Origin: Phycisphaerales bacterium
Lineage (GTDB): Bacteria > Planctomycetota > Phycisphaerae > Phycisphaerales > SM1A02
Length of the DNA: 37,670 bases
Direction: 5' to 3'
NCBI GenBank assembly: GCA_009692015.1
Contig: SIAB01000006.1
Span: forward strand, 1 to 37,670
Part shown: piece by piece, positions 36 through 35,632 of the stretch
Layout: every line of letters starts with the position of its first letter
How positions within the stretch are numbered: the first letter of the stretch is position 1
Translations under genes and position numbers: made by a program
The notes under the pieces: model-generated
What the model was told of the DNA's origin: nothing
The model's database searches: none
Seen by the model: the letters and a program-made list of their open reading frames with translations, nothing else

Positions 36-41
36 TAGCCT
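36..41 (+). promoter_or_regulatory. Putative -10 box TAGCCT of the FG-GAP gene
   Basis: TAGCCT ends 6 nt before the ATG at 48. A weak TTCTTC lies 17 nt further upstream (13-18). The spacing puts the transcription start at or next to the ATG, so the mRNA would be leaderless. The same arrangement recurs at many genes in this window. Confidence 0.4.
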
Positions 42-47
42 TTCGGA

Positions 48-1391
48 ATGCTCTCACTTTTCGTTACCGTCGCAAGCGCCGCGCTCTTGGGTCCTCCCGT
101 TCCGACGATCCGCGAAACCGCGGTCCTTGATGCGACTTCGCCCACGGTGTCGCCGACCTTCGGCATGAATGTTGCAATCTCGGGCGATCGCGTGACGGCA
201 ACGGGACCCGATCCATCACGGACCGGCGGATCCATCGGACAGATCGCGACCTTTCAGATGCAACCAACGGGTGCCTGGACCGCCTTCCGCGAGATGCAAT
301 CCTGTGATCAGGTGCGCCAGGGCGATCTGGTGCTTGGACGAATGGTGATGTCAGGCGATGTCATGCTTGTTTCCGAAGATCGGCGCGATGGTCGCAGCAG
401 CGATGTCATCGCCTTTGAGAGCAGCGACGCGAACTCGGGCTGGAAGCAGGTGATGCGCCTCGAGCCGCCGAGTGCTTCCATCGAACCTGCCTTCGGCGGC
501 GTGATTGCAACCGATGGTGTTCTCGCCGCGATTTCAACGGTCGATATGCGCGTGCTGGGTGAGAAGGCCCGAACAGTGCAAGCGTCACCCCGTGTGTTTC
601 TGTTCAAGCGCGGCGCAGAAGGGTGGGCGGGTATCGGATTTCTCCAGCGCGACGAGGCGCAGAAACCAACTTTTTTCGGTGCGTCACTGGCGATGACACC
701 AGGACAGATCGTCATCGGCTGCCCCAAGGCGATCATGGCTGCCCCCCATCAGGATCTCGTGGTTGGAGGCGATGCGGTGGTGGTGGTCTATCGCCTGAAT
801 GCGGCGGGTTCTTGGGCGATCGATGGCGAGCTGCGACCACCTGCTGAGAGTTTGGACTTTCTTGGATTTGGTTCAATCGTTGCTGCGGACGAATCGACAA
901 TCGCAGTACGAATGTCAAAGGTCACCGTGGCGACCGCCAGTGTCTTGGTGTATCGCCGAGCCCAGACCGGATGGGTGTACGACGGCCAACTGACCCCGCT
1001 CATCGATGTCACCCCGGGAGTGGGCTGGGGCGTTGCCCTGGCGATCGCGGATGGTCGAATCATCGTTGGCGATCCGACCGCGCTCAACGGCGATCAACCA
1101 CCGGGATATGTCGGCGCGTTTGCACGGGGCAAGGACGGAAACTGGGCTGAGTCGGTGCGACTGCAACCATCGGTCAAGGTCATGACTGCACGCTGGGGAG
1201 TCGCGGTGCGCGCGGATGGTCGGCGCGTCGTCGTGGCGCGACCACAAAGTGAACGGGAGGGGATCATGCCGGGTGGCGCATTGGTGTTCACACTTCCAGC
1301 TGCTGACCAAGTGCCGCCGCCCACTGCGATCCAGTCAGTGCCCGCATCAACGACGCCACTGATTGCACCGCCGACGCCGACCCCGAAGTAG
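48..1391 (+). CDS. Secreted FG-GAP/integrin-alpha-like repeat protein
   Basis: A 447-residue protein with a short hydrophobic N-terminus that looks like a signal peptide (about residues 1-15). The rest is a series of degenerate repeats of roughly 50-60 residues. Each combines a phrase like FGxxVAxxG.I.VG.P with a strand pair of the type VxVFxRxxxGW and a following L.P. This is the layout of FG-GAP (integrin alpha-type beta-propeller) repeats seen in many planctomycete surface proteins. The C-terminus is a Pro/Thr/Ala-rich tail with no obvious anchor. An in-frame TAG at 36-38 excludes an earlier start, so the ATG at 48 is the first usable one. No enzyme motif is visible. A structural or adhesive extracytoplasmic role is inference from the fold only. 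Confidence 0.7.
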   Translation: MLSLFVTVASAALLGPPVPTIRETAVLDATSPTVSPTFGMNVAISGDRVTATGPDPSRTGGSIGQIATFQMQPTGAWTAFREMQSCDQVRQGDLVLGRMVMSGDVMLVSEDRRDGRSSDVIAFESSDANSGWKQVMRLEPPSASIEPAFGGVIATDGVLAAISTVDMRVLGEKARTVQASPRVFLFKRGAEGWAGIGFLQRDEAQKPTFFGASLAMTPGQIVIGCPKAIMAAPHQDLVVGGDAVVVVYRLNAAGSWAIDGELRPPAESLDFLGFGSIVAADESTIAVRMSKVTVATASVLVYRRAQTGWVYDGQLTPLIDVTPGVGWGVALAIADGRIIVGDPTALNGDQPPGYVGAFARGKDGNWAESVRLQPSVKVMTARWGVAVRADGRRVVVARPQSEREGIMPGGALVFTLPAADQVPPPTAIQSVPASTTPLIAPPTPTPK

Positions 1392-1418
1392 TGCAAGCAG
1401 GGCGTCCGCCGCAGCGAC

Positions 1419-1724
1419 TCACTCCCAGTTTCGCACCACGCAGGCCGCGCAGAGCACGCCGCAGACGATGTTGAATGGTCCCACGGCGTCCGGTGGCCAC
1501 TGAATCGGTGCCAGCACATTGAGCGCGACAGCCATCGCTCCAAAGATCGCGGCCCACGCCGGGAGTTTCAAAGTGACCAGCCAGACCGCACTCACAAACG
1601 CCGCAATCGATAGTGCCCACGCGACGATGGCGCGCAACTGTTCAGCCTCGAGCGGCGCAAACTTTGCCGCGCGTGCGAAGAGAAGAGCGCCGATGCAACC
1701 GATGATGATGAGCAGGATCTTCAC
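1419..1724 (-). CDS. Small integral membrane protein, unknown function
   Basis: A 101-residue protein that is mostly hydrophobic. Likely membrane segments are residues 2-18, 32-52, 55-74 and perhaps 82-97, with a short polar loop (about 20-31) after the first. The C-terminal part, with an N-V-L-A-P-I turn before the last helix, recalls small bacterial membrane proteins of the DUF6804 kind, but that match is from memory and weak. The GTG at 1724 is chosen because a TAGGCT box sits 7 nt before it. An upstream start would run into the divergent kinase gene. There is no Shine-Dalgarno sequence. Confidence 0.55.
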   Translation of the reverse strand: MKILLIIIGCIGALLFARAAKFAPLEAEQLRAIVAWALSIAAFVSAVWLVTLKLPAWAAIFGAMAVALNVLAPIQWPPDAVGPFNIVCGVLCAACVVRNWE

Positions 1725-1731
1725 GCCGCAG

Positions 1732-1737
1732 AGCCTA
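1732..1737 (-). promoter_or_regulatory. Putative -10 box TAGGCT of the small membrane protein
   Basis: Read on the minus strand, TAGGCT is followed by exactly 7 nt and then the GTG at 1724. It supports the GTG start and predicts a leaderless transcript. Confidence 0.4.
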
Positions 1738-1743
1738 CCCGTT

Positions 1744-1760
1744 GGGTTACTCTGCAACCC
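1744..1760. repeat. Inverted repeat GGGTT-N7-AACCC over the kinase -10 box
   Basis: A perfect 5-bp inverted repeat (1744-1748 and 1756-1760) encloses the TACTCT hexamer and ends directly before the kinase ATG. The divergent start sites are only 36 bp apart, so a protein bound here could affect both. Five base pairs can arise by chance. Confidence 0.2.
1748..1753 (+). promoter_or_regulatory. Putative -10 box TACTCT of the kinase gene
   Basis: TACTCT is followed by 7 nt and then the ATG at 1761. This is the spacing expected of a leaderless transcript. Confidence 0.45.
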
Positions 1761-3368
1761 ATGACCCCAGCGCAACGCGATCTTGCGCAGCGACTTTTCG
1801 AAGAGGCGATTCGCGAGGGAACCCCCGATCCCTCCGCATGGATTGCCACGAAGACACTCGACTCAACCGTGTGCGCCGAGGTCAAGCGAATGCTCGCTGT
1901 GCACGGCGCGCGCCCCACCCACGCCGAGTCGACCAGCGATCGCACGGCGACGCGCTTAGCTGACTCACTCTTGGGATGCGTCTTGGGCGGTTACCGCATC
2001 GATCGCTTGATCGGCACCGGAGGGATGGGGCGGGTTTACCTCGCCGTGAGTACGACCGATCCAGCCAACGAGGTCGCGATGAAAGTCTTAGGTCGCTCGG
2101 TGACTGGCGCGGTCGCTCTCTCTCGCTTCGCACGCGAGGCAGAGGTGATGGCGCGCTTGAAGCATCCCGGCATCGCGGCTTTCTTCGGTGGAGGCATGTA
2201 CGACGATGGTCAAGGTGCGGTGCCTTGGTTTGCCATGGAGCACATTGCCAATGCCACCGAACTCGCTGATTGGTGTGACAAGCGCGATGTGAATCTTCGC
2301 GGTCGCTTGAGCCTCGTTGCCGAGATCAGCGATGCCATCGGTCACGCGCACCGCGCCGGCATCATCCACCGCGATCTCAAGCCGGCCAACATCCTGATCA
2401 CTTCATCCGGCGAACCGAAGGTGATCGATTTCGGGGTTGCCCGATGTGTGGGTTCCGATTCGGGTGTCGGTGCGGTGCAGACGCAAACTGGGCAACTCCT
2501 CGGGACCCTGCAGTACATGAGCCCCGAACAGTTCGCGGGAGATCCTCGCAAGATCGACCAGCGCGCCGATGTGTATGCGCTGGGAGTGATTCTGTTTGAA
2601 CTCATCACCGGGAGTTATCCGCACGATGTTCGCGCAGTTTCAGTCACCGAAGCGGCGCGCATTGTCTGTCAGGAGGATGCCCCCGACATGCGCGGCGCGG
2701 CCGCCGACATCGATGATGCGCTTGCTGCGATCGTCGCCAAGTGCCTCCGTCGCGAACGATCCGAACGATTCGATGATGCCCGCGAATTGAGCCAGATTCT
2801 GCGCAACTGGCTGCGCGGCGAGACCGATGCGGAACCAATGCCAATCTTGGATACCAAGGGTTCGCCGTTGGCGACTGGATCGAAGGCTTCGACCACCACG
2901 AAGCCACCCGCCCGTGCCAAGAGTGCGGCGCATCCACTTGAATCACAAAGCATTCAACGATCCAGCGGATGGCTCGTGCCGACGCTCTCGGTCCTCTTGG
3001 TTGCGGTGGTGGCGCTGGTGGCAACGGGCGTGATTTCCCCCAAGAGTCTGGCCCAGTGGTGGCGGGCGCTGTCGAGTGGTGTTGCGGATGTGACAGCGAG
3101 AGACAGCGCCGCGATCGTGGAAGCGATTTCGATTGACAGCGATCCTGTCGGCGCACGGGTCACCATTGACGGCCGTGATGTCGGCGTCACTCCGGTGCGC
3201 TCTTCGATCGCTTGGCAACCAACAAGCCAGGGAGCCACCATTTCCATTTCGATGGGGGGCTACAAGTCTCAGACGCACGTGATTTCTGCGGCGCCTCGGG
3301 GCGGGCGCACCGCACCTCTGCAGATGCGCGTGCGCCTCGACCCCGCGGCCGAAACCCCTTCGCCCTGA
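1761..3368 (+). CDS. Transmembrane Ser/Thr protein kinase with PEGA domain
   Basis: A 535-residue PknB/Hanks-type kinase. Residues 1-75 are a helical N-terminal region of the sort common in planctomycete kinases. The kinase domain (about 78-350) has a complete set of motifs: Gly-rich loop IGTGGMGRV (84-92), ATP-binding Lys108 in AMKVL, HRDLKPAN (203-210), DFG (223-225) and SPEQ (254-257). A Thr/Pro/Lys-rich linker leads to one membrane helix (about 404-424). A PEGA domain (about 455-525) follows outside the membrane and starts with a typical SDPVGARVTIDG phrase. The kinase should therefore phosphorylate cytoplasmic targets and sense or bind something through PEGA. It is convergent with the secretion gene gspF (53-nt gap), but nothing in the sequence ties it to that machine. 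Target and signal are unknown. Confidence 0.93.
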   Translation: MTPAQRDLAQRLFEEAIREGTPDPSAWIATKTLDSTVCAEVKRMLAVHGARPTHAESTSDRTATRLADSLLGCVLGGYRIDRLIGTGGMGRVYLAVSTTDPANEVAMKVLGRSVTGAVALSRFAREAEVMARLKHPGIAAFFGGGMYDDGQGAVPWFAMEHIANATELADWCDKRDVNLRGRLSLVAEISDAIGHAHRAGIIHRDLKPANILITSSGEPKVIDFGVARCVGSDSGVGAVQTQTGQLLGTLQYMSPEQFAGDPRKIDQRADVYALGVILFELITGSYPHDVRAVSVTEAARIVCQEDAPDMRGAAADIDDALAAIVAKCLRRERSERFDDARELSQILRNWLRGETDAEPMPILDTKGSPLATGSKASTTTKPPARAKSAAHPLESQSIQRSSGWLVPTLSVLLVAVVALVATGVISPKSLAQWWRALSSGVADVTARDSAAIVEAISIDSDPVGARVTIDGRDVGVTPVRSSIAWQPTSQGATISISMGGYKSQTHVISAAPRGGRTAPLQMRVRLDPAAETPSP

Positions 3369-3421
3369 TCCTTCGCCAACCGCGCGAACGCGATGGCTGG
3401 TCTCGAAGACCTCCACGAAGA

Positions 3422-4681
3422 TCAGGAATGAATGGCCTTGCTCAATCCAAAGATCGGTAGCAACATTGCCGCTGCAATGCCACCGACCACCACACCCATA
3501 CCAAGAATCATGATCGGTTCGATCAAGCTCGTCGCCGCCTTGATGGCAGAGTCGAGCTCGTCTTCAGCGAACTGCGCTGCGTAGTCGAGGGTTTCAGAGA
3601 GCCGTCCGCTGCGTTCGCCGGCGTTGATCATGGCCGAGACTGGGCGCGGGACGAGTGGAGAGTTCAGAAACGCCGTGGACATGTCCTGCCCGCGATTGAC
3701 GCGATCCTCGAGTTCGTCCCAGAGTTGTTTGTACAGCGCATTGCCCGTGACCGTGCGAAGAATCCTGATGACGTCGAGCAGACTCACGCCCGCGGCGAGC
3801 AAGACGCCCATCGTTCCAGCGAATCGCACGGTGTAAAGCTGCAGGAACATGGTGCGAATCACTGGAACATTCAACCGCGCCCAATCGAGCGCCAGCCTTC
3901 CGGGTGTTGAACGGCTCCACAAGACGGATCCGATGACGACCGCAGCAATTGTGGCGATCCAAATCATCCAGTGCGCGTGCAGACTGTCGGCGATCGCCAT
4001 CAGCACGCGCGTCAGCATCGGCAGACGATCGCCCTGCGCCGCAAAGAGGGGCTTGAACTTTGGCAAGACGAAGGTCATGATGATCGCCACCGCCGTCACC
4101 GCCACAAAGAGCATGATGCCTGGATAGGCCATCGCACCCTTGACCTGCTTGGTGAATTTGCGTTGCTTGGCGAGATCCTTTGAGATTCGCGCCAGCATCT
4201 GATCGAGCATGCCCGTGGCCTCGGCAGCCTTGAGCAAGGCGATCATGACCGCTGGGAAGACGCGCGGCCACTTCGCCATCGCAGTCGAAAGATCTTCGCC
4301 CTCGCAGACATCGTCCCGGATTCGATTGATGACCGCCGCAGCCTCTTTGCTAGGGGTTTGTGCGGCGTATGTTTCGAGTCCCTCAACCAGTGAGACGCCA
4401 GTCTTCATCATCACCGAGAGTTGTGTGCAGAGCGAGAGCACTTCGTCGCGCTTGAATCGGGCGCTGAGCGATCGATCGCCAGGCGTGGCCCGGGCGACTG
4501 GTTTCGCATCCAGCGCGGCGCGGGCGATCGAAATGACCGCGAGTCCTTGACGATGCAATTCACGCACGACTCCCGCGTGGTTCGCGCACTCCATCACACC
4601 GCGGAGCGGTGCGCCGTCGGCACGGCGGGCGCGCCAATCGAAACGTGGGGTGACGAGTTGTTCAGCGACGGCAAGCGCCAT
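3422..4681 (-). CDS. gspF: Type II secretion inner-membrane platform protein GspF
   Basis: A 419-residue protein of the GspF/PilC family, the polytopic platform that couples the GspE ATPase to pseudopilus assembly. It has a short cytoplasmic N-terminal domain (about 1-60) and then two T2SSF repeats. The first (about 75-195) has the LCTQLSVMMKTGVSLVEGLE opening. The second (about 280-400) has the parallel FAGTMGVLLAAGVSLLDVI opening. Membrane helices lie after the first repeat, around 190-210 and 240-260, and near the C-terminus in a Gly-rich segment. Length is normal for the family (about 400). Its ATG lies inside the 3' end of gspE (20-nt overlap), so the two are translationally coupled. It is the last gene of the minus-strand operon. 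Confidence 0.95.
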   Translation of the reverse strand: MALAVAEQLVTPRFDWRARRADGAPLRGVMECANHAGVVRELHRQGLAVISIARAALDAKPVARATPGDRSLSARFKRDEVLSLCTQLSVMMKTGVSLVEGLETYAAQTPSKEAAAVINRIRDDVCEGEDLSTAMAKWPRVFPAVMIALLKAAEATGMLDQMLARISKDLAKQRKFTKQVKGAMAYPGIMLFVAVTAVAIIMTFVLPKFKPLFAAQGDRLPMLTRVLMAIADSLHAHWMIWIATIAAVVIGSVLWSRSTPGRLALDWARLNVPVIRTMFLQLYTVRFAGTMGVLLAAGVSLLDVIRILRTVTGNALYKQLWDELEDRVNRGQDMSTAFLNSPLVPRPVSAMINAGERSGRLSETLDYAAQFAEDELDSAIKAATSLIEPIMILGMGVVVGGIAAAMLLPIFGLSKAIHS

Positions 4682-6404: not shown

Positions 6405-6924
6405 CGAGCGCGATCTCAAAGACATGTGATCCACAGCGAATTCGGGCGTGTCGGTCGCCAACTTCAATGAGTTGGAAAGATCGCTTGCTCTTCGCGTCGG
6501 TCCAGGTCTGACCCACGCGGAGAGTCTTGCCATTGATGACCGCAAGTGAGCGGTCGAGCGTGGCTTGGAGGTCGAGGTCGGGTCCCGCCGACGAACCAGA
6601 ATGTTCCGCCGCGGCCGTGGTGAGGTCGAGGGCGGGATTCATGTCGGCAGGCGAAGCAAAGGGGCTTCGCGCAGGCAATCGCGCAAGGTCCCAGTGCGGA
6701 GTCGCGATGAGGAGCGATTCAGGAATCAGGGCAACCGCAGGTTCCGCGGGCTTGGCGATAACAGCTGCGGCAACAGGTGCCGCTTCGGCACTCTTGGGGG
6801 CGAAGGCGAGTTTCGCGCCGAAGATTCCGACGGTCGCGAAAAGCGACGCGAGCAAGAGTGCCAATTGGCGGGGCGATGTCCCCAGCCGGGCTGCAAACGC
6901 ACCCCATTTTACTTGGAACGACAT
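6397..6924 (-). CDS. PilP/GspC-like inner-membrane protein with HR domain
   Basis: A 175-residue bitopic protein. It has a short cytoplasmic N-terminus, one membrane helix (about 20-40), an Ala/Pro-rich periplasmic linker (about 43-115) and a small C-terminal beta-rich domain (about 120-174). That domain contains the phrases AVINGKTLRVGQTW and RIRCGSHVFEIAL. It matches the pattern of the homology region of PilP and GspC, in which 'INGk..r.Gd' is followed by paired strands ending in a hydrophobic 'v.l...G..f.l.l'. In known systems this domain links the PilN/O or GspL/M inner-membrane complex to the secretin. Its position between the pilO-like gene and gspE fits that job. No PDZ domain follows. 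The start is a TAATG junction with the gene upstream, and the end overlaps gspE. Family assignment is by pattern and context. Confidence 0.72.
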   Translation of the reverse strand: MSFQVKWGAFAARLGTSPRQLALLLASLFATVGIFGAKLAFAPKSAEAAPVAAAVIAKPAEPAVALIPESLLIATPHWDLARLPARSPFASPADMNPALDLTTAAAEHSGSSAGPDLDLQATLDRSLAVINGKTLRVGQTWTDAKSKRSFQLIEVGDRHARIRCGSHVFEIALDG

Positions 6925-18481: not shown

Positions 18482-18487
18482 TACCCT
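18482..18487 (+). promoter_or_regulatory. Putative -10 box TACCCT of the secreted GH13 gene
   Basis: TACCCT is followed by 8 nt and then the ATG at 18496, which predicts a leaderless transcript. No Shine-Dalgarno sequence is present. Confidence 0.4.
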
Positions 18488-18495
18488 TCGATTGC

Positions 18496-20535
18496 ATGAA
18501 TTCGATCGATCGGGCAATCTTCGTGCTGCTCGGTGTGGCAATCGCCGTGCCGCCCACGCTCGGGCAAGTTTCGGCGCGACCCGGCATCGGGGCGATCCCA
18601 TTCACTTCGGCCACGGGCAACGGAACCACCTTTCGCACCTTCGCACCGTTCGCAGACACGGTCGCGGTCGGTGGCACATTCAACTTCTGGAGCACGACCA
18701 GTCGACCGCTCTATAACGAAGGAAATGGCTACTGGTCGGTTGACGTGCCGACCGTGCAGGCGGGGGCGCAGTACAAGTTTTACATCAAGCGCGGGACGCA
18801 ACTGATGTGGAAGAACGACCCGCGCGCCCGGGATCTGGTGAGTTCCGTTGGGAACTCGGTCATCTACGACCCCAACTCATATGTCTGGCAAACCCAGAAC
18901 TTCTCGATTCCGACTTGGGACAAGATGGTGATGTATGAGATGCATCTCGGCACCTTCGGCACATCGACCAGTGGATTTCCGCCCGCAACGCTGGATCAAT
19001 GTGCAGTGAAGTTGGATCACCTCGCAGAGCTTGGGGTCAATGTGATCGCCTTGATGCCCGCTTGCGAGTTTCCGACGGATCGCTCGTGGGGATACAACGG
19101 CTCATACCTGTATGCCGTTGAGAGTGCCTACGGCACGCCCAACGACCTCAAGGAGTTCATCGACGCAGCGCACGCCCGCGGCATCGCCGTGACCTCTGAT
19201 GTGGTTTACAACCACATCGGTCCAACCGACCTGGATATGTGGCAGTTTGATGGTTGGTCACAAAACGGTCTAGGTGGCGTGTTCTTCTATAACGACTTTC
19301 GCGCCTACACCCCCTGGGGCGATACCCGCCCGGACTTCGGTCGGGGCGAAGTGCGCTGGTTCCTGCGCGACAACGCCATGATGTGGCTGAACGAATTTCG
19401 CATGGACGGCCTGCGCGTCGATGGAACCAAGTACATCCGCCGCGTCGGTCAGGATGGTCCTGAGATTCCCGATGGCTGGTCGCTCTTGCAGTGGCTGAAC
19501 AACGAGGTTGATGCAGTGTCGCCCGAGAAGATCATGATTGCGGAAGATATGGATGTCGAGGAATTCATCACCAAGACCACCGGGGCTGGTGGCGCTGGGT
19601 TTGACAGTCAATGGGATGCCAGTTTTTATCCACAGATTCGCGCGGCGGTGATCACACCCAACGACGCCGATCGCAACATGAACTCGTTGCGCGACGCGAT
19701 TGCATTCTCCTACAACGGGTCCATGCAGCAGCGGGTGATCTATAGCGAGAGTCACGACGAAGTTGCCAATGGCAGACAGCGCGTTCCTGAGGAGATTTCA
19801 CCGGGCGACGCCGCCTCGTGGTACGCGCGGAAGCGCTCGACGCTCGCCGCGGCGGTGGTGATGTCATCGCCGGGGATCCCGTTGATCTTTCAGGGCCAGG
19901 AATTTCTCGAGGATGAGTGGTTTCGCGATGATGTGCCACTCGATTGGTCGCGCAAGACGACCTACGCAGGCATCTTCAAGCTCTATCAAGATCTGATCGC
20001 CCTGCGCAGGAATTCAACAGGCGTCAGCCGCGGACTCTCTGGCTTCAGCACCAATGTCTTCCATGTCAACAACACCGACAAGTTGGTCGCCTATCACCGC
20101 TGGCAAAGTGGCGGAGAGTTGGATGACACGATCATCGTGGCCAACTTCTCGGGGACACCACGGCTCAATTACCGGATCGGCATGCCCCGCGCAGGTTTGT
20201 GGAAATGCCGATTCAACAGCGACTGGATCGGCTATTCGACCGATTATGCCAACACCCTCTGCGTGGCGACTGCGGCTTCGGGTCCTGCCTGGGATGGACT
20301 CGCCCAGAGCGCGCTGGTGTCGGTGGGCGCCTATTCGGTGATCATGTTTTCACAGGGCGATCCACCGCCGGTCTATGCCCCGCAAGACTTGAATCAGGAT
20401 GGATTCGTCAACGCCGCTGATCTCACAATGCTCTTGTCTGCGTGGGGAACCACGGGTGGTCCCGCGGATATCAACGGCGATGGCTTTGTCAATGGCGGAG
20501 ACCTCGCGAGCATTCTCAGCGCCTGGTCGTCGTAG
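18496..20535 (+). CDS. Secreted GH13 alpha-glucan enzyme with dockerin-like tail
   Basis: A 679-residue secreted glycoside hydrolase family 13 protein. The signal peptide covers about 1-23. An E-set/CBM48-like domain (about 40-130) is followed by a TIM barrel (about 140-510). Region I is DVVYNH (235-240), and region II LRVDG contains nucleophile Asp309. Region III IAEDMD contains acid/base Glu350, and region IV ESHDEV contains Asp421. All catalytic residues are present. A beta-rich C-terminal domain follows. Two calcium-loop motifs, [13 protein letters not shown] and [13 protein letters not shown], end the protein. The barrel resembles branching enzymes and trehalohydrolases (WGYNG and [20 protein letters not shown]). 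I cannot say whether it hydrolyses or transfers. Its 3' end overlaps the convergent ATPase gene by 20 nt. Confidence 0.88.
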
Positions 20536-21729: not shown

Positions 21730-21735
21730 AAGATA
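21730..21735 (-). promoter_or_regulatory. Putative -10 box TATCTT of the MalK-type gene
   Basis: On the minus strand TATCTT is followed by 8 nt and then the ATG at 21721, a leaderless arrangement. The divergent starts are only 45 nt apart. The octamer CATTGACA occurs at 21719-21726 and again at 21760-21767, at both start codons. Confidence 0.45.
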
Positions 21736-21766
21736 CTCGACAGCACCGATGCGGTACAACATTGAC

Positions 21767-23176: not shown

Positions 23177-24040
23177 TCAGCCCTTGACCGCGCCACGCGC
23201 CAGCCCCTCGATGAACTGTCGTTGCGCGGAGACGAAGAGCAAGATGCAGGGGACCATGGTCACCAGGCTCGCCGCCATCAACAGATGGACATCCTCGAGT
23301 CCGCCATACTGATTGCGAAACGAATTGAGCGCGACGGCGAGAGTCGCCTGATCGTCAGAGTGCAAGTACACCAGCGGTCCCATGAAGTCGTTCCAGACGA
23401 AGATGAAGGTGAAAACTGCGCAGATCGCCGTGACCGGCTTGCAGAGTGGCAAGATGATCCGCCACCAGATCGCCAGGAGTGTGTAGCCATCGACCTGCGC
23501 GGCTTCGATGAGACTCTCTGGAATCTGCCCGATGAACTGGCGGTACATGAAGATGAAGAACGCGTTGCCAAAGAAGGCCGGGATGATGAGCGGCAAGAGC
23601 GAATCGATCCAACCGAAACTTCGAAAGAGGATGAAGAGCGGAATGAGCGTGACTTGCCCCGGAAGCATCATCGTTCCCAGCATGATGAGGAAGAGCGGAC
23701 GACTGCCGCGAAACCGAACCCGGGCGAAGGCGAACCCAACGAGACTGCTTGAGGTCACGGTGCCGACTACCACCAGCATTGTCACCACGATGGAGTTCGC
23801 CAGGGCGTTTTGAAATCCCTGCCACGGCACAGATCCCATTTCGCGCAGCGCCAGTGGGTAGTTCATCCACTGCGGCGAATCGGGCCAGAGTGTGAGTCCC
23901 CCCGCGCCGCTCACCGCTGCGCCGGCTCGCTCGGGAGTCTCCAGACTCACAACCAGCATCCACCAGAGCGGCAAGAGCATGATGAGTGCGCCGCACACCA
24001 ACAGCGTGTATTGAAAAGCCCGCCAGAGGGTGCGATTCAT
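23177..24040 (-). CDS. MalG-type sugar ABC transporter permease
   Basis: A 287-residue CUT1 permease with six predicted membrane helices, the first about residues 12-32. The EAA loop EAAQVDGYTLLAIWWRIILP (about 200-219) contacts the ATPase. The C-terminus ends in the usual ARGAVKG found in MalG-type subunits. Length is normal (about 275-300). The start overlaps the MalE-MalF fusion gene as ATGA, so both are made together. It completes an importer with that fusion and the MalK-type ATPase. Neighbouring GH13, MalQ and GlgP genes make maltodextrin the likely substrate, but the sequence alone does not show specificity. Confidence 0.92.
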   Translation of the reverse strand: MNRTLWRAFQYTLLVCGALIMLLPLWWMLVVSLETPERAGAAVSGAGGLTLWPDSPQWMNYPLALREMGSVPWQGFQNALANSIVVTMLVVVGTVTSSSLVGFAFARVRFRGSRPLFLIMLGTMMLPGQVTLIPLFILFRSFGWIDSLLPLIIPAFFGNAFFIFMYRQFIGQIPESLIEAAQVDGYTLLAIWWRIILPLCKPVTAICAVFTFIFVWNDFMGPLVYLHSDDQATLAVALNSFRNQYGGLEDVHLLMAASLVTMVPCILLFVSAQRQFIEGLARGAVKG

Positions 24041-26421
24041 GTTCGAAGTCCTTCGGCGTGTACCCAGCGATTACTGGTGCGCAGAATGAGGACAGTGAGT
24101 CCCAGCACGATCAACAGCAGGAGCCACGCCATGGCACTGGCGTAACCCATCTCGTAGAACTCGAATCCCTGATTATAAAGATAGAGCACATAGAAGCGGG
24201 TGAGATCGCCCGGCTCGCCGCCAGTCATCACAAACGCTTGGGTGAAAATCTGAAAACTCGCGATGAGCGCCATGATCACATTGAAGAGGATGATCGGCGA
24301 GAGCATCGGCAGCGTGACCGACCAGAATTGGCGGCGCTTGCTAGCCCCATCGATGGATGCCGCTTCATAGAGCTCGCTTGGAATCTGCTGCAATCCTGCG
24401 AGATACACGATCATCGTGGCGCCCATGAACCAGAGACTCATCAGCGCAAATGCCGGCGCACCCCAGATGCGCGCGTCGATCCCAAACCATTCAGGTGCGG
24501 TCAACCCCAGCGGCGTGAGCAGTGGTTGAATTGCGCTGTTGAGGAGTCCGCCATCGGCGTCAAAGATCCAGCGCCAAAGCACGGCGACTCCTACACCCGC
24601 CAGCACGCTCGGCAGATACCACGCGGCGCGAAAGAGATGGATCCCACGCAACTTCGCATTCATCAAGAGCGCAGCAAGGAGCGCCAGCACCTGCCCAGCT
24701 GGGACCGCGATGATCGCGTAGTACGCAGTCACCCAAAGACTCGCGCGAAAGCGATGATCGAAGGCGAGCAGTTGCTCGAAGTTTGCAGTGCCGGCAAAGT
24801 CTGCCGCACCGAGTGGCGAGACTCCCTTCCAGCGGGCGAATGCCAGCGCCAGGCTCATACCGATTGGAAAGACCATGAAGAGTGCGAAGCCGATTATCCA
24901 TGGTGAGGCCAGTAGGAAACCAACGCGCTCCTCGCTGCGACGGGCGAGAGTCAGCGCGCCACCTCTGAGTTTCAGCGTCGCGGCAACGATGCCGATGATC
25001 ACAAACGCGATGGCGATCCAGCTCAGCCACTTCCATGGCATCGGCGGCATCGAATCGCTGCGAAGCGGACTCTGCCTCTGCGCTTTCCAGTCGCGCTCAA
25101 AGTTCGCGACTGCTTCCGCGAGCGGAAGGTCTCCTGTCTTGAGTCCTTGATCGAGGCGCGATCCCAACAACGCTTCAAACTGTGGGTCGGGTGGCCAATC
25201 AACAATACGGGCGTGCTCTGCCGCGTCGAGAAAACCTTGATCGTTGGCGGGTGCCTGCGTGGGATCGGCAAATGACTCGCTTTCTGCGGCGCGACGAATG
25301 GTCGGAATGGCGAGCCCGAGTTGCGCGAGTGCGCGCTGATTCTGCTCACCCGAAAGAAAGCGCACCAGCTTCCAGGCTTCTTCTGGATGCTTGCTCTCAC
25401 TTGAGATTGACCAAGAAACAGTGAGGACGATGTTGCTCTCAACTTCACCGCGCGGAAGGGGAGCGAAGTCCCACTCGAATCCGCCCGCGGCTGGCGAGGG
25501 AATCTTGCGGTAGCTCGGCACCACCCAGCGCCCGAAGGGTCCGGCGAGACCAACCTTGCCGCTCAGGAAGACGCTTGAACCTGTGGCGATCTTGCTCTTT
25601 CCACTCGTGAGTGCCCCCGATTCGTCGTGTCGCCAACTTCGCAATCGCTCGAGCGCAGCGAGCACCTTCGGATCAGATGTCCGAAGGTCATCGAAGGACG
25701 ATCCCTTCACATCAAGACCGTCACTCATCAAGTATGCGCGCACCATCGCCGGCCAGGTCACAAATTCTGCGCCGGTGCAGCCGGGCAGTCGTCCGATCGC
25801 CCGGGCATCTGCGATGAATTCGTCCCAGCTCCAGTTCGCGCTGGGTGGCTGCAGTCCCGCGCGCGCAAAGAGATCCTTGTTCCAATAGAACCCAACCGTC
25901 GTGAAATCTTTGGGGATGCCATAGAGCGCACCGCGACCACACTGCTCGCCGTCATACTGGAAGGCGGCAACGGTCGCGGGATAAAACGCGGCGAGGTCGA
26001 GGCGATCGCTGACTTGCGACCGCGCGTCGGCCGCCAGTAACCCATCGAGCGGGGCGAGCAGTCCGAGGGTTACAAACGCGGGGATCCGCTCCGATCCAAC
26101 ATAGAAGACATCTGGTGGATCTCCCGAGGCCATCATGGTCTGCAACTTTGTATAAAAACTCCCCGCATCGCCGGGGTTGATCCGCCGGACGCGCAAGGTC
26201 GGATGGTCGCGCTCGAATGTGCGCAGGGCATCTTCAACGATCTGGTCTTCCTCCTGGCCGCCCTCGCCCGACCAGTGCATGACCACCAGTTCTGTGCGCG
26301 AATCCAGCGCCCAGAATCGGTTGAGTTCTCGCGTGCCCACCGTGACGAACGCCCAGAGCACGATCGCGCAAACCGCAACCGTCAGCAGTGCGCGCATCAA
26401 GCGGACGAAGCGACGAGTCAT
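24037..26421 (-). CDS. MalE-MalF fusion: solute-binding protein joined to permease
   Basis: A 794-residue protein joining two normally separate parts of a CUT1 importer. Residues 9-29 form an N-terminal membrane helix with no lipobox. Residues about 44-447 are a complete family 1 solute-binding domain, with MASGDPPDVFYVG, YGIPKDFTTVGFYWNKDLF and HPEEAWKLVRFLSG phrases typical of MalE-type proteins. A second helix (about 464-483) is followed by a short Arg-rich cytoplasmic stretch. The MalF-type permease domain (about 500-794) carries the EAA loop EAASIDGASKRRQFWSVTLP (686-705). The binding domain is tethered at both ends by membrane helices and so sits directly over the channel. There is no frameshift or internal start to suggest two genes. 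The ATG at 26421 is preceded by TATGCT 8 nt upstream. Confidence 0.92.
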   Translation of the reverse strand: MTRRFVRLMRALLTVAVCAIVLWAFVTVGTRELNRFWALDSRTELVVMHWSGEGGQEEDQIVEDALRTFERDHPTLRVRRINPGDAGSFYTKLQTMMASGDPPDVFYVGSERIPAFVTLGLLAPLDGLLAADARSQVSDRLDLAAFYPATVAAFQYDGEQCGRGALYGIPKDFTTVGFYWNKDLFARAGLQPPSANWSWDEFIADARAIGRLPGCTGAEFVTWPAMVRAYLMSDGLDVKGSSFDDLRTSDPKVLAALERLRSWRHDESGALTSGKSKIATGSSVFLSGKVGLAGPFGRWVVPSYRKIPSPAAGGFEWDFAPLPRGEVESNIVLTVSWSISSESKHPEEAWKLVRFLSGEQNQRALAQLGLAIPTIRRAAESESFADPTQAPANDQGFLDAAEHARIVDWPPDPQFEALLGSRLDQGLKTGDLPLAEAVANFERDWKAQRQSPLRSDSMPPMPWKWLSWIAIAFVIIGIVAATLKLRGGALTLARRSEERVGFLLASPWIIGFALFMVFPIGMSLALAFARWKGVSPLGAADFAGTANFEQLLAFDHRFRASLWVTAYYAIIAVPAGQVLALLAALLMNAKLRGIHLFRAAWYLPSVLAGVGVAVLWRWIFDADGGLLNSAIQPLLTPLGLTAPEWFGIDARIWGAPAFALMSLWFMGATMIVYLAGLQQIPSELYEAASIDGASKRRQFWSVTLPMLSPIILFNVIMALIASFQIFTQAFVMTGGEPGDLTRFYVLYLYNQGFEFYEMGYASAMAWLLLLIVLGLTVLILRTSNRWVHAEGLRT

Positions 26422-26486
26422 GCCTGGCAAGCATAGTTCGCCACCCGGGAGTGCATTGCAGGGTCACGCTCTACCATCGCAGCGCT
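26422..26486. promoter_or_regulatory. Divergent control region of MalEF and the secreted amylase
   Basis: In 65 nt this region holds a minus-strand -10 box TATGCT (26430-26435, 8 nt before the malEF ATG) and a plus-strand -10 box TACCAT (26472-26477, 9 nt before the amylase ATG). It also holds the palindromes TGCCTGGCA (26421-26429) and TGCATTGCA (26452-26460). The first palindrome lies just at the predicted malEF transcription start and the second between the promoters. Both could be operator half-sites or whole sites for a sugar-responsive repressor. No regulator gene is in the window. Confidence 0.4.
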
Positions 26487-30382: not shown

Positions 30383-30419
30383 CAGGCACCTCACCCGGCG
30401 CGCCGCGGGGGAGATTTGG

Positions 30420-30426
30420 TATCAAT
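30420..30426 (+). promoter_or_regulatory. Possible internal promoter element TATCAAT before glgP
   Basis: TATCAAT lies 9 nt before the glgP ATG at 30436, close to the spacing of other TANNNT boxes here. A purine-rich GGGGGAG lies just upstream. It may give glgP its own leaderless transcript in addition to readthrough from malQ. Confidence 0.3.
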
Positions 30427-30435
30427 GCGCGGCTC

Positions 30436-32565
30436 ATGGCGTTTGCCCCGCGACATCCTGCGATCGCAGTCGACGAACTCGTCAGTCATCTGCGCGATCT
30501 CGCGTCGAATCTCTGGTGGTCGTGGAACGAAGAGGGATGGTCGGTCTTCCAAACCCTCGATCCGACGGAGTGGCGCGCAACCAATCACTCACCGATTGGA
30601 ACGCTCGAACGAACTTCGCAGGCTCGAATTGCGGCACTTGCCTGCGATCCAATGTTCGTCAAACGGGTCTACGACGGCTTGGCTGCGCGGGCCGCCTATC
30701 TCGGTGAACGCGCCTGGTTTCAACGCAGTGCGGCTGCCCGACACACCAATTTTCGCGTTGGCTACTTCTGCAGCGAGTTTGGATTGCACGAATCGATCCA
30801 ACAGTATGCGGGAGGACTTGGCATTCTTGCCGGCGATCACCTGAAGAGCTCTTCAGATCTCGGAATTCCGCTTGTCGCCGTCGGTCTCGCCTATCGCCAT
30901 GGCTATTACATCCAACAACTCGCCCGCGATGGGTCGACACAAGTGCTCTATCCAGACTATGACTTTGGTCGCTTTGGAATCGAAGACACCCGCGTGACGA
31001 TCGGCTGCCCAATCGGTGCGCACATCGTCACCGCGCGCGTGATGCGGATGTGGGTGGGACGGATTCCGCTCTATTTGCTCGATACGGATCTGAAGGCCAA
31101 TGCACCAGAGGATCGCAAGTTGACCGAGGGTCTTTACAAGGGCGAGCCCCTCCTTCGTTTGCGGCAGCAGGTTCTGCTCGGCGTTGGCGGCATGATGGCA
31201 TTGAAGGCGCTCGGCGAAAAAATCACGGTGTTGCATCTCAACGAGGGGCACGCGGCATTCGCAGCGCTGCAGCGCGCGGTCGATTTGCATGCGGTCGGCC
31301 GTTCGATTCAGGAGTCGTTCGATGCCGTACGTCGTGCCACGGTTTTCACAACACACACTCCCGTGCCAGCGGGCCATGATCGCTACGACCCCAAGATGGT
31401 CTGTGAAGAGCTGGCCTCGATCGCCGCGCGTAGCGGACTTTCGCCGGCCGAATTCGCTGACCTCGGTCGCATCCGTGGGGGCGATGCCAGCGAGACATTC
31501 TGCATGACCGTGCTCGCCCTGCGCTTGGCACAGCGGGTGAATGGCGTGTCGCAGTTGCATGGCGAAGTGAGCCGGGAGATGTGGAAGGATTTCTACGCCG
31601 GGACCGCAAGCAAGGCTCCCATTGGGTCGATCACCAACGGCGTACACACCAAGACCTGGATCGACCCCGACGCAGAGCGATTCTGGAGAACTGAGATCGA
31701 ACTGCGCCTCGGCAAGCAGGCGCCGAAAGCGACAGGATGGCGGCGCGCAACCGAGGTGAACCGCGCGCGATTCTGGGAACTCAGGTCGCGGCTTCGCAGT
31801 CGACTCGTGCACTTCGTGCGGGATCGATTGGCGATGCAGTGCAAACGCCGGGGCGAGGGTCAGTCGGCCGTCGCAGCCACCTACTCACTGCTCAATGACG
31901 ACGCGCTGACAATCGGATTCGCGCGACGATTCGCCACCTACAAGCGGGCTCCGCTGATCTTTCACGATCCTGCCCGCCTCGCCGCGCTGCTCGCTCGAAC
32001 AGATCGCCCGGTGCAATTGATTTTCGCGGGCAAGGCGCATCCGCGCGACGAGGCTGGGCAAGCCTTCGCGCAGAAGATCTTCACGATGACCCGCGACCCG
32101 CGATTCGCAGGGCGCGTTGCCTTCGTGGAGGAGTACGACATGCATGTTGGTCGAATGCTCACTTCGGGATGCGATGTCTGGCTCAACACCCCGACCCGTC
32201 CATATGAGGCAAGTGGCACGAGTGGCATGAAGCCACCCCTGCACGGAGGCCTCAATCTCTCCATCCTCGATGGATGGTGGCCTGAGGCAACCGATGGCAT
32301 CAATGGATGGAGCATCGGAGGCACCGAGGCGGAACCCGATTCGAAGTTGCAGGATGCGGCGGATGCCGCGAGTCTCTATCAATTGCTCGAAGAGTCGGTC
32401 GTTCCACAGTTCTACCAACGCGACGCGGCGGGTCTGCCACAGGGTTGGATCGCCCGCGCGCTGCAAAGCGCAGCGACTGTGCCGGCTGAATTCAATTCAC
32501 ACCGGATGGTCGCGCAGTACACGCGCAAGGCATACTTGCCCGCGAACGAGATTCGCGGAAGTTGA
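30436..32565 (+). CDS. glgP: Alpha-glucan (glycogen/maltodextrin) phosphorylase GlgP
   Basis: A 709-residue phosphorylase of the short, Thermotoga-like type that cleaves alpha-glucans with phosphate to give glucose-1-phosphate. The N-terminus has LRDLASNLWWSW (19-30), usual for this subgroup. FCSEFGLHESIQQYAGGLGI and LAGDHLKSSSDLG (from 111) belong to the substrate-binding core. The pyridoxal phosphate lysine is Lys599 in ASGTSGMK, followed by GGLNLSILDGWW. Length is normal for this type (about 700-850). The ATG at 30436 gives the usual N-terminus, and the earlier open frame overlaps malQ. Synthesis genes (glgA, glgB, glgC) are absent here, which fits a degradative role with malQ. It is convergent with the next gene (3-nt gap). 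Confidence 0.95.
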   Translation: MAFAPRHPAIAVDELVSHLRDLASNLWWSWNEEGWSVFQTLDPTEWRATNHSPIGTLERTSQARIAALACDPMFVKRVYDGLAARAAYLGERAWFQRSAAARHTNFRVGYFCSEFGLHESIQQYAGGLGILAGDHLKSSSDLGIPLVAVGLAYRHGYYIQQLARDGSTQVLYPDYDFGRFGIEDTRVTIGCPIGAHIVTARVMRMWVGRIPLYLLDTDLKANAPEDRKLTEGLYKGEPLLRLRQQVLLGVGGMMALKALGEKITVLHLNEGHAAFAALQRAVDLHAVGRSIQESFDAVRRATVFTTHTPVPAGHDRYDPKMVCEELASIAARSGLSPAEFADLGRIRGGDASETFCMTVLALRLAQRVNGVSQLHGEVSREMWKDFYAGTASKAPIGSITNGVHTKTWIDPDAERFWRTEIELRLGKQAPKATGWRRATEVNRARFWELRSRLRSRLVHFVRDRLAMQCKRRGEGQSAVAATYSLLNDDALTIGFARRFATYKRAPLIFHDPARLAALLARTDRPVQLIFAGKAHPRDEAGQAFAQKIFTMTRDPRFAGRVAFVEEYDMHVGRMLTSGCDVWLNTPTRPYEASGTSGMKPPLHGGLNLSILDGWWPEATDGINGWSIGGTEAEPDSKLQDAADAASLYQLLEESVVPQFYQRDAAGLPQGWIARALQSAATVPAEFNSHRMVAQYTRKAYLPANEIRGS

Positions 32566-32568
32566 GTT

Positions 32569-33708
32569 TCAAGGCGCCGTCGCGGGATGCGAGTCCCGCA
32601 TCGGCGCGGGCATCGGCGCGGCGCGGCGCGACTCGAGCTGCAGCGTCCGATCAAGAATCATCTCGGTCTCCTCGGGCAGGGCGAGCATCATCGCCCGATC
32701 GAGCGAAATTGTGGCGAGAGCGAGTTCGCCGGCGCGCGCCTGGACATCTGCGAGCGCGCAGTAGGCGATCGCTTCGGTTCGCTTGGAGAGTTCGATTGCC
32801 TTCAACGCCGCCGCCGACGCACGGGTGAGGTCGGGGCGTTCGAATGTCTCGGCGACGAGCGTGCTAGCAATCGCAGCCGCAACTCTCCAGTTGGTGGTGG
32901 CCCCAACGACGGTGTCGCTCAAACTCAGAGCATCCTCGACGCGCCCAAGCTGCTGCAGCGAAGAGATGTGCAACAGCACTCCCTCCTGCGCGAGAATTGG
33001 ATTCGAGTCCTTCGCCATCTCGACCGCGGTCACCACCAACCCGTCCCAGTTCTTTCGCTCGCGGTGGTCCGCGATGCGCGCATCAAAGGCGGTCGCCCGG
33101 CTGGTCGTCGCCACACTCTCAGCGCGTGCGTTGCTTCGACCCTCCGCAGACCATGTTCCGGCAACAACGAGTCGGATCACATCTCCGACATCGCGTGGAT
33201 TCCCGATCCAAAGAATCTTTCCCCGCTGAGCGAGAAATGCAGTCGGCAGCGAATTCTGCCAAGCCGGAGCCATCAGTTGTTGATACACGCTTCGGTCAGG
33301 ATCGCATCCGATCGCGAAGCGCACCAGCTCGTGATATCTGGGCGATTCCAACAGCGGTTGAATGAGCGTGAGAGGTTCATCGGTCACGCCAACGATCACG
33401 AGACCCCGCGCGCCATAGTCATCCGCAAGTTTCGACAACCGACCGAGCGACTCGCGTGCAGGTGCGATCTTCGATGACCAGAAGTTGATCAAGAAAATCT
33501 GGGATGGATCCGTGAAATCTGGGGCACTCCCGCGAGCCCAGAAATCGATCTCGGGCAGCGGCAGCAGGGACCCGATTGTGAGCGGGGGGCGCACCTCGGT
33601 TGGGCCGGATTGGCCCGTCGTCGGTGGTGGTTGCGCGGGCTGCCGCGCCGGTACGGCGCCCTCTTGAATCACGGTTGCAACGAACATCAATAGTGCGTAA
33701 CCCAGCAT
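32569..33708 (-). CDS. TlpA-like redoxin-fold protein lacking CxxC, with TPR-like tail
   Basis: A 379-residue exported protein. A hydrophobic N-terminus (about 1-16) is a signal peptide or anchor, followed by a Pro-rich linker. Residues about 45-215 have the thioredoxin fold of TlpA/ResA proteins. IFLINFWSS is the strand before the active site, LGRLSKLADDYGARGLVIVG follows it, and SLPTAFLAQRGKILWIG is the cis-Pro strand with its partner. Where TlpA has the active-site CxxC, this protein has Ile81-Ala-Pro-Ala84, so disulfide chemistry is not possible at that site. Residues about 245-365 are helical with TPR-like spacing. It is probably a binding or scaffold protein in the periplasm. The ATG at 33708 is chosen by TACGCT 7 nt upstream and by the signal peptide. 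Confidence 0.72.
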   Translation of the reverse strand: MLGYALLMFVATVIQEGAVPARQPAQPPPTTGQSGPTEVRPPLTIGSLLPLPEIDFWARGSAPDFTDPSQIFLINFWSSKIAPARESLGRLSKLADDYGARGLVIVGVTDEPLTLIQPLLESPRYHELVRFAIGCDPDRSVYQQLMAPAWQNSLPTAFLAQRGKILWIGNPRDVGDVIRLVVAGTWSAEGRSNARAESVATTSRATAFDARIADHRERKNWDGLVVTAVEMAKDSNPILAQEGVLLHISSLQQLGRVEDALSLSDTVVGATTNWRVAAAIASTLVAETFERPDLTRASAAALKAIELSKRTEAIAYCALADVQARAGELALATISLDRAMMLALPEETEMILDRTLQLESRRAAPMPAPMRDSHPATAP

Positions 33709-33715
33709 GACTCCA

Positions 33716-33721
33716 AGCGTA
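33716..33721 (-). promoter_or_regulatory. Putative -10 box TACGCT of the TlpA-like gene
   Basis: On the minus strand TACGCT is followed by 7 nt and then the ATG at 33708. This picks that ATG over several upstream in-frame starts. Confidence 0.45.
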
Positions 33722-33738
33722 CCGATGCGAAATGCGAT

Positions 33739-33744
33739 TACATT
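33739..33744 (+). promoter_or_regulatory. Putative -10 box TACATT of the antiporter gene
   Basis: TACATT is followed by 7 nt and then the ATG at 33752. It supports this start over the ATG codons at 33707 and 33725, which would overlap the divergent gene. Confidence 0.45.
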
Positions 33745-33751
33745 CTCACCG

Positions 33752-34924
33752 ATGCCAAATCCCGCGCGCAGATCGCTGAGAGAGATTGGCTGGATCGCCG
33801 ACCTTGCCGTTGTCGCAGCCATCCTGTTTGGGGTCATGGTGATACTCCAACCGAGTTGGGTCGGGCTTGAGGTGATCGAGGCAAGCGCAGCTGCCACTGG
33901 GGGTCACACGACCACATCCGGACCGTGGTTCCTCTTCCCGCTCATCCTCTTGACAATCCTGCTCTGTGCATTTCGAGCGAGTCGCCACGCTGAGCGGTTC
34001 GCGCATCTGCTGCGCGAACCGTTTGGCGTGCTCATTCTCACCCTTTCCGCTGTCACGATTGAGGTCGCGCTGGTCATTGGAGTCATGTTGACCGGGCCGC
34101 AACAGGACGATGTGGCGCGCAACGCGATGTTCGCAGTGCTCATGATGATCATGAACGGACTCGTCGGCATTGCGCTCGTTGCCGGTGGACTTCGAAAGCG
34201 CGAACAGACATTCAATGTCCAGTCGACCAATGCGTTCTTGGCGCTCATCACTGGGATCTCTTTCATTGGACTGGTGATGCCGCGGCTCACTGTCTCACGG
34301 CCGGGCGGATACATGACCGAGCAGATGGAACTCTTCGTGGCTGGTGCTTCGCTCGGGGTGTATTTTGCATTCTTGGTGCTGCAGTCATCCTCGCACACCC
34401 AAATGTTTACGCATCGCGCCGACGGGGACGAGATGACCGCCACGGTGGAGGCAACTGACCGTTCATCAAAGTCTGGCGCGATTTGGAATGCAGTCGGTTG
34501 GCTGGTCGCTGCACTCCTTGGCGTTGTGCTGCTGTCGCATTCCCTCGGTGGACTTCTCTCAACATTTTTCGCGCGGCGTTACCTTCCGGGAGCGTTCGAG
34601 GGAGTCGTGATCGCCCTGCTCGTCCTGCTTCCCGAGGGCATCGCGGCGGTGCGCGCGGCACTGCGATCCAATGTTCAGCGGACGGTCAACATTCTGCATG
34701 GCTCTGCGCTGAGCACAATAGGCTTGACGATCCCCGCCATCCTGGCGGTGTCGTTGGTGATAAAGCGACCGGTCGAACTGGGATTGAGTTCACCCGAGAT
34801 CGGCTTGCTCGCGGCGACGATTATCCTTTCGATGCTCAATGTTTCGCTGGGAAAGTCCAATCTCATGCAGGGCATCACCCACCTCATGCTCTTTGCAATG
34901 TGGATCGCGCTGCTCTTGGACTAG
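33752..34924 (+). CDS. chaA: ChaA-type Ca2+ (Na+, K+)/H+ antiporter
   Basis: A 390-residue inner-membrane antiporter of the CaCA superfamily, ChaA branch, which exports calcium, sodium or potassium in exchange for protons. About eleven membrane helices are visible. The two inverted alpha repeats contain the ion-binding acidic residues: Glu104 in LSAVTIEVALVIG and Glu295 in LLPEGIAAVRAAL. The phrase REPFGVLILTLS and the second-half QRTVNILHGSALSTIGLT closely follow E. coli ChaA. A hydrophilic loop (about 215-240) separates the halves. Length is close to the family norm (about 366). Its stop interlocks with the convergent lipoprotein stop in a shared CTAG (34921-34924). Confidence 0.93.
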   Translation: MPNPARRSLREIGWIADLAVVAAILFGVMVILQPSWVGLEVIEASAAATGGHTTTSGPWFLFPLILLTILLCAFRASRHAERFAHLLREPFGVLILTLSAVTIEVALVIGVMLTGPQQDDVARNAMFAVLMMIMNGLVGIALVAGGLRKREQTFNVQSTNAFLALITGISFIGLVMPRLTVSRPGGYMTEQMELFVAGASLGVYFAFLVLQSSSHTQMFTHRADGDEMTATVEATDRSSKSGAIWNAVGWLVAALLGVVLLSHSLGGLLSTFFARRYLPGAFEGVVIALLVLLPEGIAAVRAALRSNVQRTVNILHGSALSTIGLTIPAILAVSLVIKRPVELGLSSPEIGLLAATIILSMLNVSLGKSNLMQGITHLMLFAMWIALLLD

Positions 34925-35619
34925 CGCGGCGGCTGCGCCACGCCACCAAAGGCCGCCTGTCGCGGCGGCATTCCGTTCGGAACGCGCGCTCGACCAGTCG
35001 CGATCGCCTGCTGCACGAAGTGGGCCACCATCCCATCCGCCAGCGCATCGCCCGACGAGGCGACCATCGCATGGTTGCACTTGGTGATCGCCCAGGCCGA
35101 CGAATTCCAACTCGCTCGGTGGGTGGTGGCACGCATGGCATCCACGAAGAGCTCGGCGTTGTCAACATAGGTCGTCTGATCGAGAATCAGGTGACCGCTA
35201 TCGTCGTAGCGCCCAACGAAACAAAACCAGGCGCAACCTCCAGCACCGCCGGCAGACGCGGACCGAACGACGCGACCAGCGATCGCCAGGATGAATGTGC
35301 TCTGCGCGGGGCGAAAGGCGTAGGCCACGCCATCGATGAACTGCTGCCGCGTGACGATCACGCCAGTCGAATCCACCTCCTCAACCGTCTGACTGAGTTG
35401 ATCGACCGTGCGCAGGACGATCTGCTCGCCGAGCGAGGTATCAGGTAGTCGACCATCGTGACTGCGCGCGTAGTCCAAGATCGCTGCGCGCGCGCGGGGA
35501 ATCTGGGATGCGGCCAGCGGCGGAACTTGGAAGTCGGCTGGGATCGCCGGAGGAGTTGAGCAACCCGTCGCAACGGCAAGAACAAGACAGAGTCCAACAA
35601 TGCGATGCGAACTTTGCAT
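34921..35619 (-). CDS. Hypothetical lipoprotein
   Basis: A 232-residue protein with a clear lipoprotein signal (LAVATGC, Cys at about residue 20). The mature part has a helical region (about 40-80) and then alternating strands, with a small Gly/Cys/Trp-rich segment (GGAGGCAWFCFVGRYDD) around residue 130. The C-terminal 30 residues are rich in Arg and Pro and look disordered. No known domain is recognised. TACAGT 7 nt before the ATG at 35619 supports the start. The stop overlaps that of the convergent antiporter gene by 4 nt. Confidence 0.7.
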   Translation of the reverse strand: MQSSHRIVGLCLVLAVATGCSTPPAIPADFQVPPLAASQIPRARAAILDYARSHDGRLPDTSLGEQIVLRTVDQLSQTVEEVDSTGVIVTRQQFIDGVAYAFRPAQSTFILAIAGRVVRSASAGGAGGCAWFCFVGRYDDSGHLILDQTTYVDNAELFVDAMRATTHRASWNSSAWAITKCNHAMVASSGDALADGMVAHFVQQAIATGRARVPNGMPPRQAAFGGVAQPPR

Positions 35620-35626
35620 GGGCGCT

Positions 35627-35632
35627 ACTGTA
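35627..35632 (-). promoter_or_regulatory. Putative -10 box TACAGT of the lipoprotein gene
   Basis: On the minus strand TACAGT is followed by 7 nt and then the ATG at 35619. The box lies in the 42-nt gap after the upstream gene, which suggests a separate leaderless transcript. Confidence 0.4.

Follow-up and report, generated by a model that had tools for sequence, protein, structure and literature searches.

The window analysed here is a 37,670-nt stretch of DNA, one contig (SIAB01000006.1) of a 1.74-Mb Phycisphaerales assembly (GCA_009692015.1; 98 contigs, 86% complete), in which a TANNNT hexamer recurs shortly upstream of start codons. An initial annotation of this sequence had listed ten such boxes, ending 6-9 nt before the start, and all ten were recovered at those spacings. 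On the plus strand they are TAGCCT, a -10-like box (36..41, 6 nt before ATG 48), TACTCT (1748..1753, 7 nt before ATG 1761), TACCCT (18482..18487, 8 nt before ATG 18496), TACCAT (26472..26477, 9 nt before ATG 26487 of an amylase gene), and TACATT (33739..33744, 7 nt before ATG 33752 of a gene of the Na/Ca exchanger family). Their minus-strand counterparts comprise TAGGCT (1732..1737, 7 nt before GTG 1724, divergent from 1761), TATCTT (21730..21735, 8 nt before ATG 21721 of a gene for a MalK-like ABC ATPase), TATGCT (26430..26435, 8 nt before ATG 26421 of a gene for a solute-binding protein plus permease), TACGCT (33716..33721, 7 nt before ATG 33708), and TACAGT (35627..35632, 7 nt before ATG 35619). 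Translation is predicted to start at GTG in the 1724 gene and at ATG in the other nine. Two near matches claimed earlier are also present on the plus strand, namely TACAAC (21755..21760, 6 nt before ATG 21767) and TATCAA, without the final T (30420..30425, 10 nt before ATG 30436).

The boxed starts were further described as devoid of a good Shine-Dalgarno (SD) sequence, which agrees with the absence of AGGA, GGAG, and GAGG 3-12 nt upstream of eight of the ten by tabulation and of the other two (48 and 33752) by eye. Within the window, TANNNT lies 6-9 nt before an ATG of any kind at 12 sites, nine of which are the listed ATG genes, and none of the nine genes that lie shortly behind a same-strand gene, or overlap with it, has a box.

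Enrichment and form of the box

We assessed the box in a genome sample of 41 stretches that add up to 731 kb (42% of the genome), with genes called by a self-trained gene finder that is blind to upstream sequence. This caller, with longer word memory (624 genes), replaced an earlier codon-only one (548 genes); 607 genes were counted, and the remaining 17, including the one at 48, were excluded for starting within 60 nt of a stretch end. On E. coli, it reproduced 19 of 22 hand-listed annotated starts; in the window, this second caller omits 33752-34924 and places a start at 33822 rather than 33708.

The positioned TANNNT peak at leading genes that the initial annotation had proposed to look for was evident in this sample against shuffled sequences, closely spaced genes of the same strand, and ATGs inside genes. 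A box lies 6-9 nt before the called start in 64 of 190 divergent (head-to-head) genes, as compared with a mean of 5.3 (sd 2.2, maximum 11) in 200 shuffles, with 1, 4, 9, 7, and 6 boxes in five other 4-nt windows of the same genes, and with 18 boxes at 4200 in-frame internal ATGs. The spacing profile of the divergent genes has a sharp onset at 6 and a tail to 12, with counts of 0, 2, 1, 0, 0, and 1 at spacings 0-5, of 25, 15, 12, 12, 7, 5, and 3 at spacings 6-12, and of 0-4 per position further out; 53 of the 64 boxed genes start with ATG and 11 with GTG. Leading and downstream genes differ markedly in this respect (64/190 divergent vs 25/211 closely spaced, p 1.6e-7). Same-strand genes at gaps of 25-79 nt are boxed in 26 of 91 cases (shuffle mean 1.8) and those at contig edges in 6 of 36, the shuffle means for gaps of at least 80 and below 25 nt being 1.2 and 1.7, respectively.

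When start codons within 4 score units of the called one were admitted as alternative starts, a box at 6-10 nt was found in 103 of the 190 divergent genes vs 7, 15, and 19 in control windows; about half of the head-to-head genes, not all, therefore carry the element. The reversed motif T...AT scored 22/190 at the same spacing with called starts and 51/190 with alternative ones, as against 71 and 103 for TANNNT, but we preferred other spacing windows as control because T...AT overlaps TANNNT words such as TAGGAT. A count independent of gene calls, which contrasts TANNNT-N6-ATG with TANNNT-N15-ATG at equal composition and codon phase over the whole genome, yielded 182 vs 51 occurrences.

Alignment of 116 boxes uncovered no position between 35 and 4 nt upstream with more than 0.07 bit of information, while the three bases preceding the box hold 0.07-0.12 bit. 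A search for TTGACA with up to two mismatches revealed no peak at spacers of 15-19, so in form the box corresponds to a -10 element that lacks a -35 partner. Among its inner bases, A makes up 3% at position 3, and C and A make up 56% and 27%, respectively, at position 5. In E. coli K-12 (200 kb), the same pipeline placed boxes at 2 of 56 divergent genes; in plasmids of Deinococcus radiodurans and D. deserti (100 kb), it placed them at 9 of 22. The anti-SD word CCTCC is present in ten 16S genes of the family, so SD-dependent initiation may occur as well. SD-like words precede 64 of 211 closely spaced genes vs 31 of 190 divergent ones (p 0.001).

Conservation and start codons

The T2SS-F protein of the window is 77-86% identical to those of 12 of the 23 loci found, which come from assemblies, some of them from lakes, that bear the labels Phycisphaerales, Planctomycetia, Planctomycetaceae, 'Singulisphaera sp. 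GP187', or uncultured bacterium. The source organism is likely a member of the Nemodlikiaceae, freshwater Phycisphaerae with 2.6-Mb genomes, a median spacer of 43.5 nt, and dockerins (PMC6461901); the text of that paper does not contain the word 'leaderless'.

At the divergent 1724/1761 pair, both boxes are kept 6-7 nt from the start in all 11 named relatives, while their middle bases vary. The gap between the two genes is 36 nt in seven of these relatives, 34-35 nt in three, and 52 nt in the remaining locus (L052), where the 1761 gene has an in-frame upstream ATG 6 nt from the box. For five other window genes we scored congeneric orthologues, leaving out rows with no start codon near the aligned N-terminus or with the N-terminus missing, as well as five duplicate or own-genome loci. 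Measured from whichever start lies closest to the aligned one, 64 of 71 orthologues have a box at 6-12 nt, whereas windows at 14-20, 21-27, and 28-34 nt in the same sequences are boxed in 4, 2, and 1 cases. The individual scores are 16/16 for malK (21721), 12/12 for the exchanger (33752), 12/16 for the amylase (26487; 16/16 with other nearby starts), 14/16 for the binding protein (26421), and 10/11 for the 33708 gene. The box moves together with the start codon, with shifts of up to ~20 nt between species, and malK orthologues have spacings of 7-12. In other genera, malK is boxed in 2 of 12 loci among the best 30 loci listed; several of the unboxed ones seemingly follow the end of a same-strand gene.

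The initial annotation also held that the pattern fixes start codons that coding length alone would misplace. The start at 26421 is to be preferred to the coding-only choice at 26397, since in 13 of 16 congeneric orthologues the alignment begins at residue 1 and a start lies at that place, and the start at 33708 is consistent with the boxes of its orthologues, whose N-termini vary. Between 21767 and 21749 the evidence points both ways: GGTACAAC, upstream of 21767, is kept in 15 of 16 congeneric loci as counted by eye, but its conservation would also be expected if it formed the first codons of a protein starting at 21749.

Two of the boxed genes encode proteins of interest in their own right. 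The product of 24037-26421 (minus strand) joins SBP_bac_1 and BPD_transp_1 domains, normally separate parts in sugar transporters, in one protein, and that of 18496-20535 (plus strand) is an amylase-like protein with a dockerin domain, a module reported for freshwater Phycisphaerae (PMC6461901).

Compact divergent spacers

The genome is also remarkable for how close its divergent genes stand. Gaps of up to 70 nt separate 42 of 95 divergent pairs (37 at 9-69 nt, five overlapping), as compared with one of 28 pairs in E. coli, two of 11 in Deinococcus, 10 of 22, 6 of 22, and 2 of 14 in relatives at family (G022), genus (G042), and phylum (G103) level, and none in five other relatives. In the analysis of boxes at these pairs, starts were moved toward boxes within a coding score of 4, which inflates the class with both sides boxed. 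With starts so moved, both sides are boxed in 32 of 95 pairs vs 27.9 expected for independent sides; 26 of these 32 lie within 70 nt, and in seven the boxes overlap (raw counts). By the same procedure, 72 of 100 sides are boxed in pairs within 70 nt and 31 of 90 in longer ones, and three of the 95 pairs, with gaps of 18, 21, and 22 nt, share a TANNNTA palindrome between the divergent starts (raw count; L012:18366-18385, L024:919-941, and L030:7014-7037). What is unusual about the system is how short its divergent spacers are, with boxes that overlap in a few of them.

Among closely spaced same-strand genes in stretches L003-L042, the upstream stop codon supplies the first three bases of a box in 15 of 90 pairs at gaps of 0-25 nt and in six of eight pairs at a gap of 9.

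One possible account, which we put forward tentatively, is that in these compact genomes divergent genes stand start-to-start, often less than 70 nt apart, with leaders absent and a spacer that amounts to little besides two back-to-back or overlapping -10 boxes. A palindromic TANNNTA may then serve two leaderless genes, and since two polymerases could presumably not sit there together, such pairs would be coupled by polymerase competition; an upstream stop codon forming the next -10 would be a related economy. In other bacteria, symmetric -10 elements have divergent start sites usually 18 bp apart, and in enterobacterial bidirectional promoters the -7T and -11A are shared by such start sites (PMC10268837), an arrangement that the three tightest pairs here may resemble. 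Unlike the promoters described there, however, both arms would here yield leaderless coding mRNAs, and most boxed pairs have separate boxes.

Distribution across genomes

We then sampled 80-200 kb of each of eight relatives for boxes 6-9 nt before divergent genes, leaving out six stretches of G061 shorter than 2 kb. Boxes precede 10 of 44 divergent genes in the genus-level relative (G042), 12 of 44 and 4 of 36 in those of the family (G022 and G009), 1 of 16 and 7 of 32 in those of the order (G061 and G117), 4 of 24 in an AT-rich one of the class (G102), and 1 of 28 and 4 of 28 in those of the phylum (G078 and G103).

Whole-genome counts at spacing 6 vs spacing 15 were obtained for 262 genomes and compared by a one-sided binomial test with one control spacing and uncorrected p. 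Within the family, spacing 6 prevailed at p<0.001 in 69 of 73 genomes; the remaining families of the order contributed 40 of 48, and genomes from outside it 64 of 141. The threshold was therefore missed in 4, 8, and 77 genomes of the respective sets, which speaks against generality. The test is weak in power for AT-rich genomes, and among low-background genomes the figures are 40/40, 18/18, and 43/55. Family f21 nevertheless stays near a ratio of 1.0 even at low background (130 vs 124 in G204, 230 vs 231 in G215), and one genome falls below it (G200, 234 vs 327), so the null of the ratio is not exactly 1. Across the order the signal is common, across the phylum it is patchy, and small genomes are not alone in showing it: the contrast is extreme in G160, a 3.9-Mb genome of the same order (family f41; 321 vs 14), and strong in the 4.4-Mb G149 (412 vs 69). 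Genome reduction as sole cause of leaderless genes was rejected on account of these two larger genomes.

Interpretation of the boxes

We consider it very probable that the boxes are -10-only promoters giving rise to leaderless or near-leaderless mRNAs in this uncultured lake planctomycete and many of its relatives. The initial annotation had likewise read the box as a -10 that places transcription start at the first codon, with widespread leaderless mRNAs, and this reading gains support at the DNA level from the enrichment, the conservation, the lack of a -35, and the Deinococcus and E. coli controls. We infer the use of the box as a -10, the sigma factor, the 5' ends, and the mode of translation from DNA geometry. 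Transcription starts ~7 bp downstream of a -10 box, so at a spacing of 6 the +1 position coincides with the first codon base, while spacings of 9-12 point to leaders a few nucleotides long. The boxes would thus act as -10 elements, most likely read by the housekeeping RNA polymerase and so placed that transcription begins with the start codon itself or a few bases ahead of it. Counted at the called start, about a third of the head-to-head genes would be expressed in this leaderless or near-leaderless manner, a share that rises to about half with nearby starts. Ribosomes with initiator tRNA would then bind the 5' AUG or GUG; leaderless mRNAs of other bacteria are bound at their 5' AUG with initiator tRNA.

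Several observations weigh against this interpretation. Eight leading or possibly leading genes of the window lack a box (9665, 9066, and 6864 on the minus strand; 9684, 13424, 16655, 17853, and 29066 on the plus strand), and same-strand genes at gaps of at least 80 nt are boxed at the called start in just 9 of 79 cases, which is unexpected under a simple rule that every leading gene carries the element. Conversely, closely spaced same-strand genes (gap <25) are also boxed at 6-9 nt (25/211), although less strongly enriched. Nor are box and SD-like word significantly exclusive among divergent genes (9/64 boxed vs 22/126 unboxed, p 0.68).

The promoter role could be right and most of the mRNAs still have short leaders of ~1-6 nt, making them near-leaderless. 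Spacings that range from 6 to 12, and from 7 to 12 in malK orthologues, would accommodate such leaders, but the commonest spacing is 6 (25 of 64-79 peak boxes), at which the usual start site falls on the first codon base, and we hold this variant to be unlikely, though worth keeping in mind. That an alternative sigma factor, and not the housekeeping one, reads the box appears improbable. Freshwater Phycisphaerae are dense in sigma factors (PMC6461901) and the middle bases of the box depart from TATAAT, yet the box is spread over genes of many kinds and looks like the TANNNT form reported for high-GC groups (PMC3160421).

Alternatively, the word might be no promoter element but serve as a signal for translating leadered mRNAs, for instance as an S1 site or an AU-rich one, given that upstream AT bias and S1 sites are inseparable by composition alone (PMC5397173). 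We regard this as highly improbable, as T, A, and T occupy fixed places with free bases between them, and downstream genes, where such a signal should be equally common, are poorly enriched. The pattern might finally be an artefact of TAA or TAG stops upstream of called starts, or of start choice by the gene finder; the box does often coincide with the upstream stop at closely spaced genes, as in the 15 and six pairs mentioned above. However, divergent genes also show high counts at spacings 7 and 8, which are out of frame (15 and 12), A at position 3 is rare, gene-call-free counts agree, and the gene finder is blind to upstream sequence, all of which renders this explanation barely credible.

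If the boxes indeed drive leaderless or near-leaderless expression, -10-only leaderless genes would be a major expression mode in lake Phycisphaerales, patchy across the phylum and extending beyond the best-known groups. Start codons in these uncultured genomes could then be corrected by rule, and the graded signal over the 262 genomes could serve to trace gain and loss of leaderless initiation.

Comparison with known systems

Our search of the literature on leaderless genes, TANNNT, and planctomycete promoters or start sites, which covered few subscription papers, found no description for this group. This bears out the initial annotation, which knew of none, except that one planctomycete had been scored for an upstream bias ascribed to leaderless mRNA and/or S1 (PMC5397173); the bacteria-wide scan in Fig S7 of PMC12340547 may also include planctomycetes. 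The statement that TANNNT-led leaderless genes are known from Deinococcus and actinobacteria is matched by both PMC3160421 and PMC12340547. As in the TA-led leaderless genes of Actinobacteria and Deinococcus-Thermus, the first T of TANNNT lies ~12 nt before the start and the middle bases are uninformative in high-GC genomes; the leader, absent there, would be absent here too (PMC3160421). The two sets differ in phylum, and the string 'planctomycet' is absent from that paper's main text. In Deinococcus radiodurans, the ORF-adjacent TANNNT is a functional -10 without a leader, and a GGAG motif is found at other genes (Zhong 2025, PMC12340547); that case was tested by experiment, whereas the present one is known from DNA alone. 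Its geometry indicates that the system described here operates in the manner of the TA-led genes found in Deinococcus and actinobacteria.

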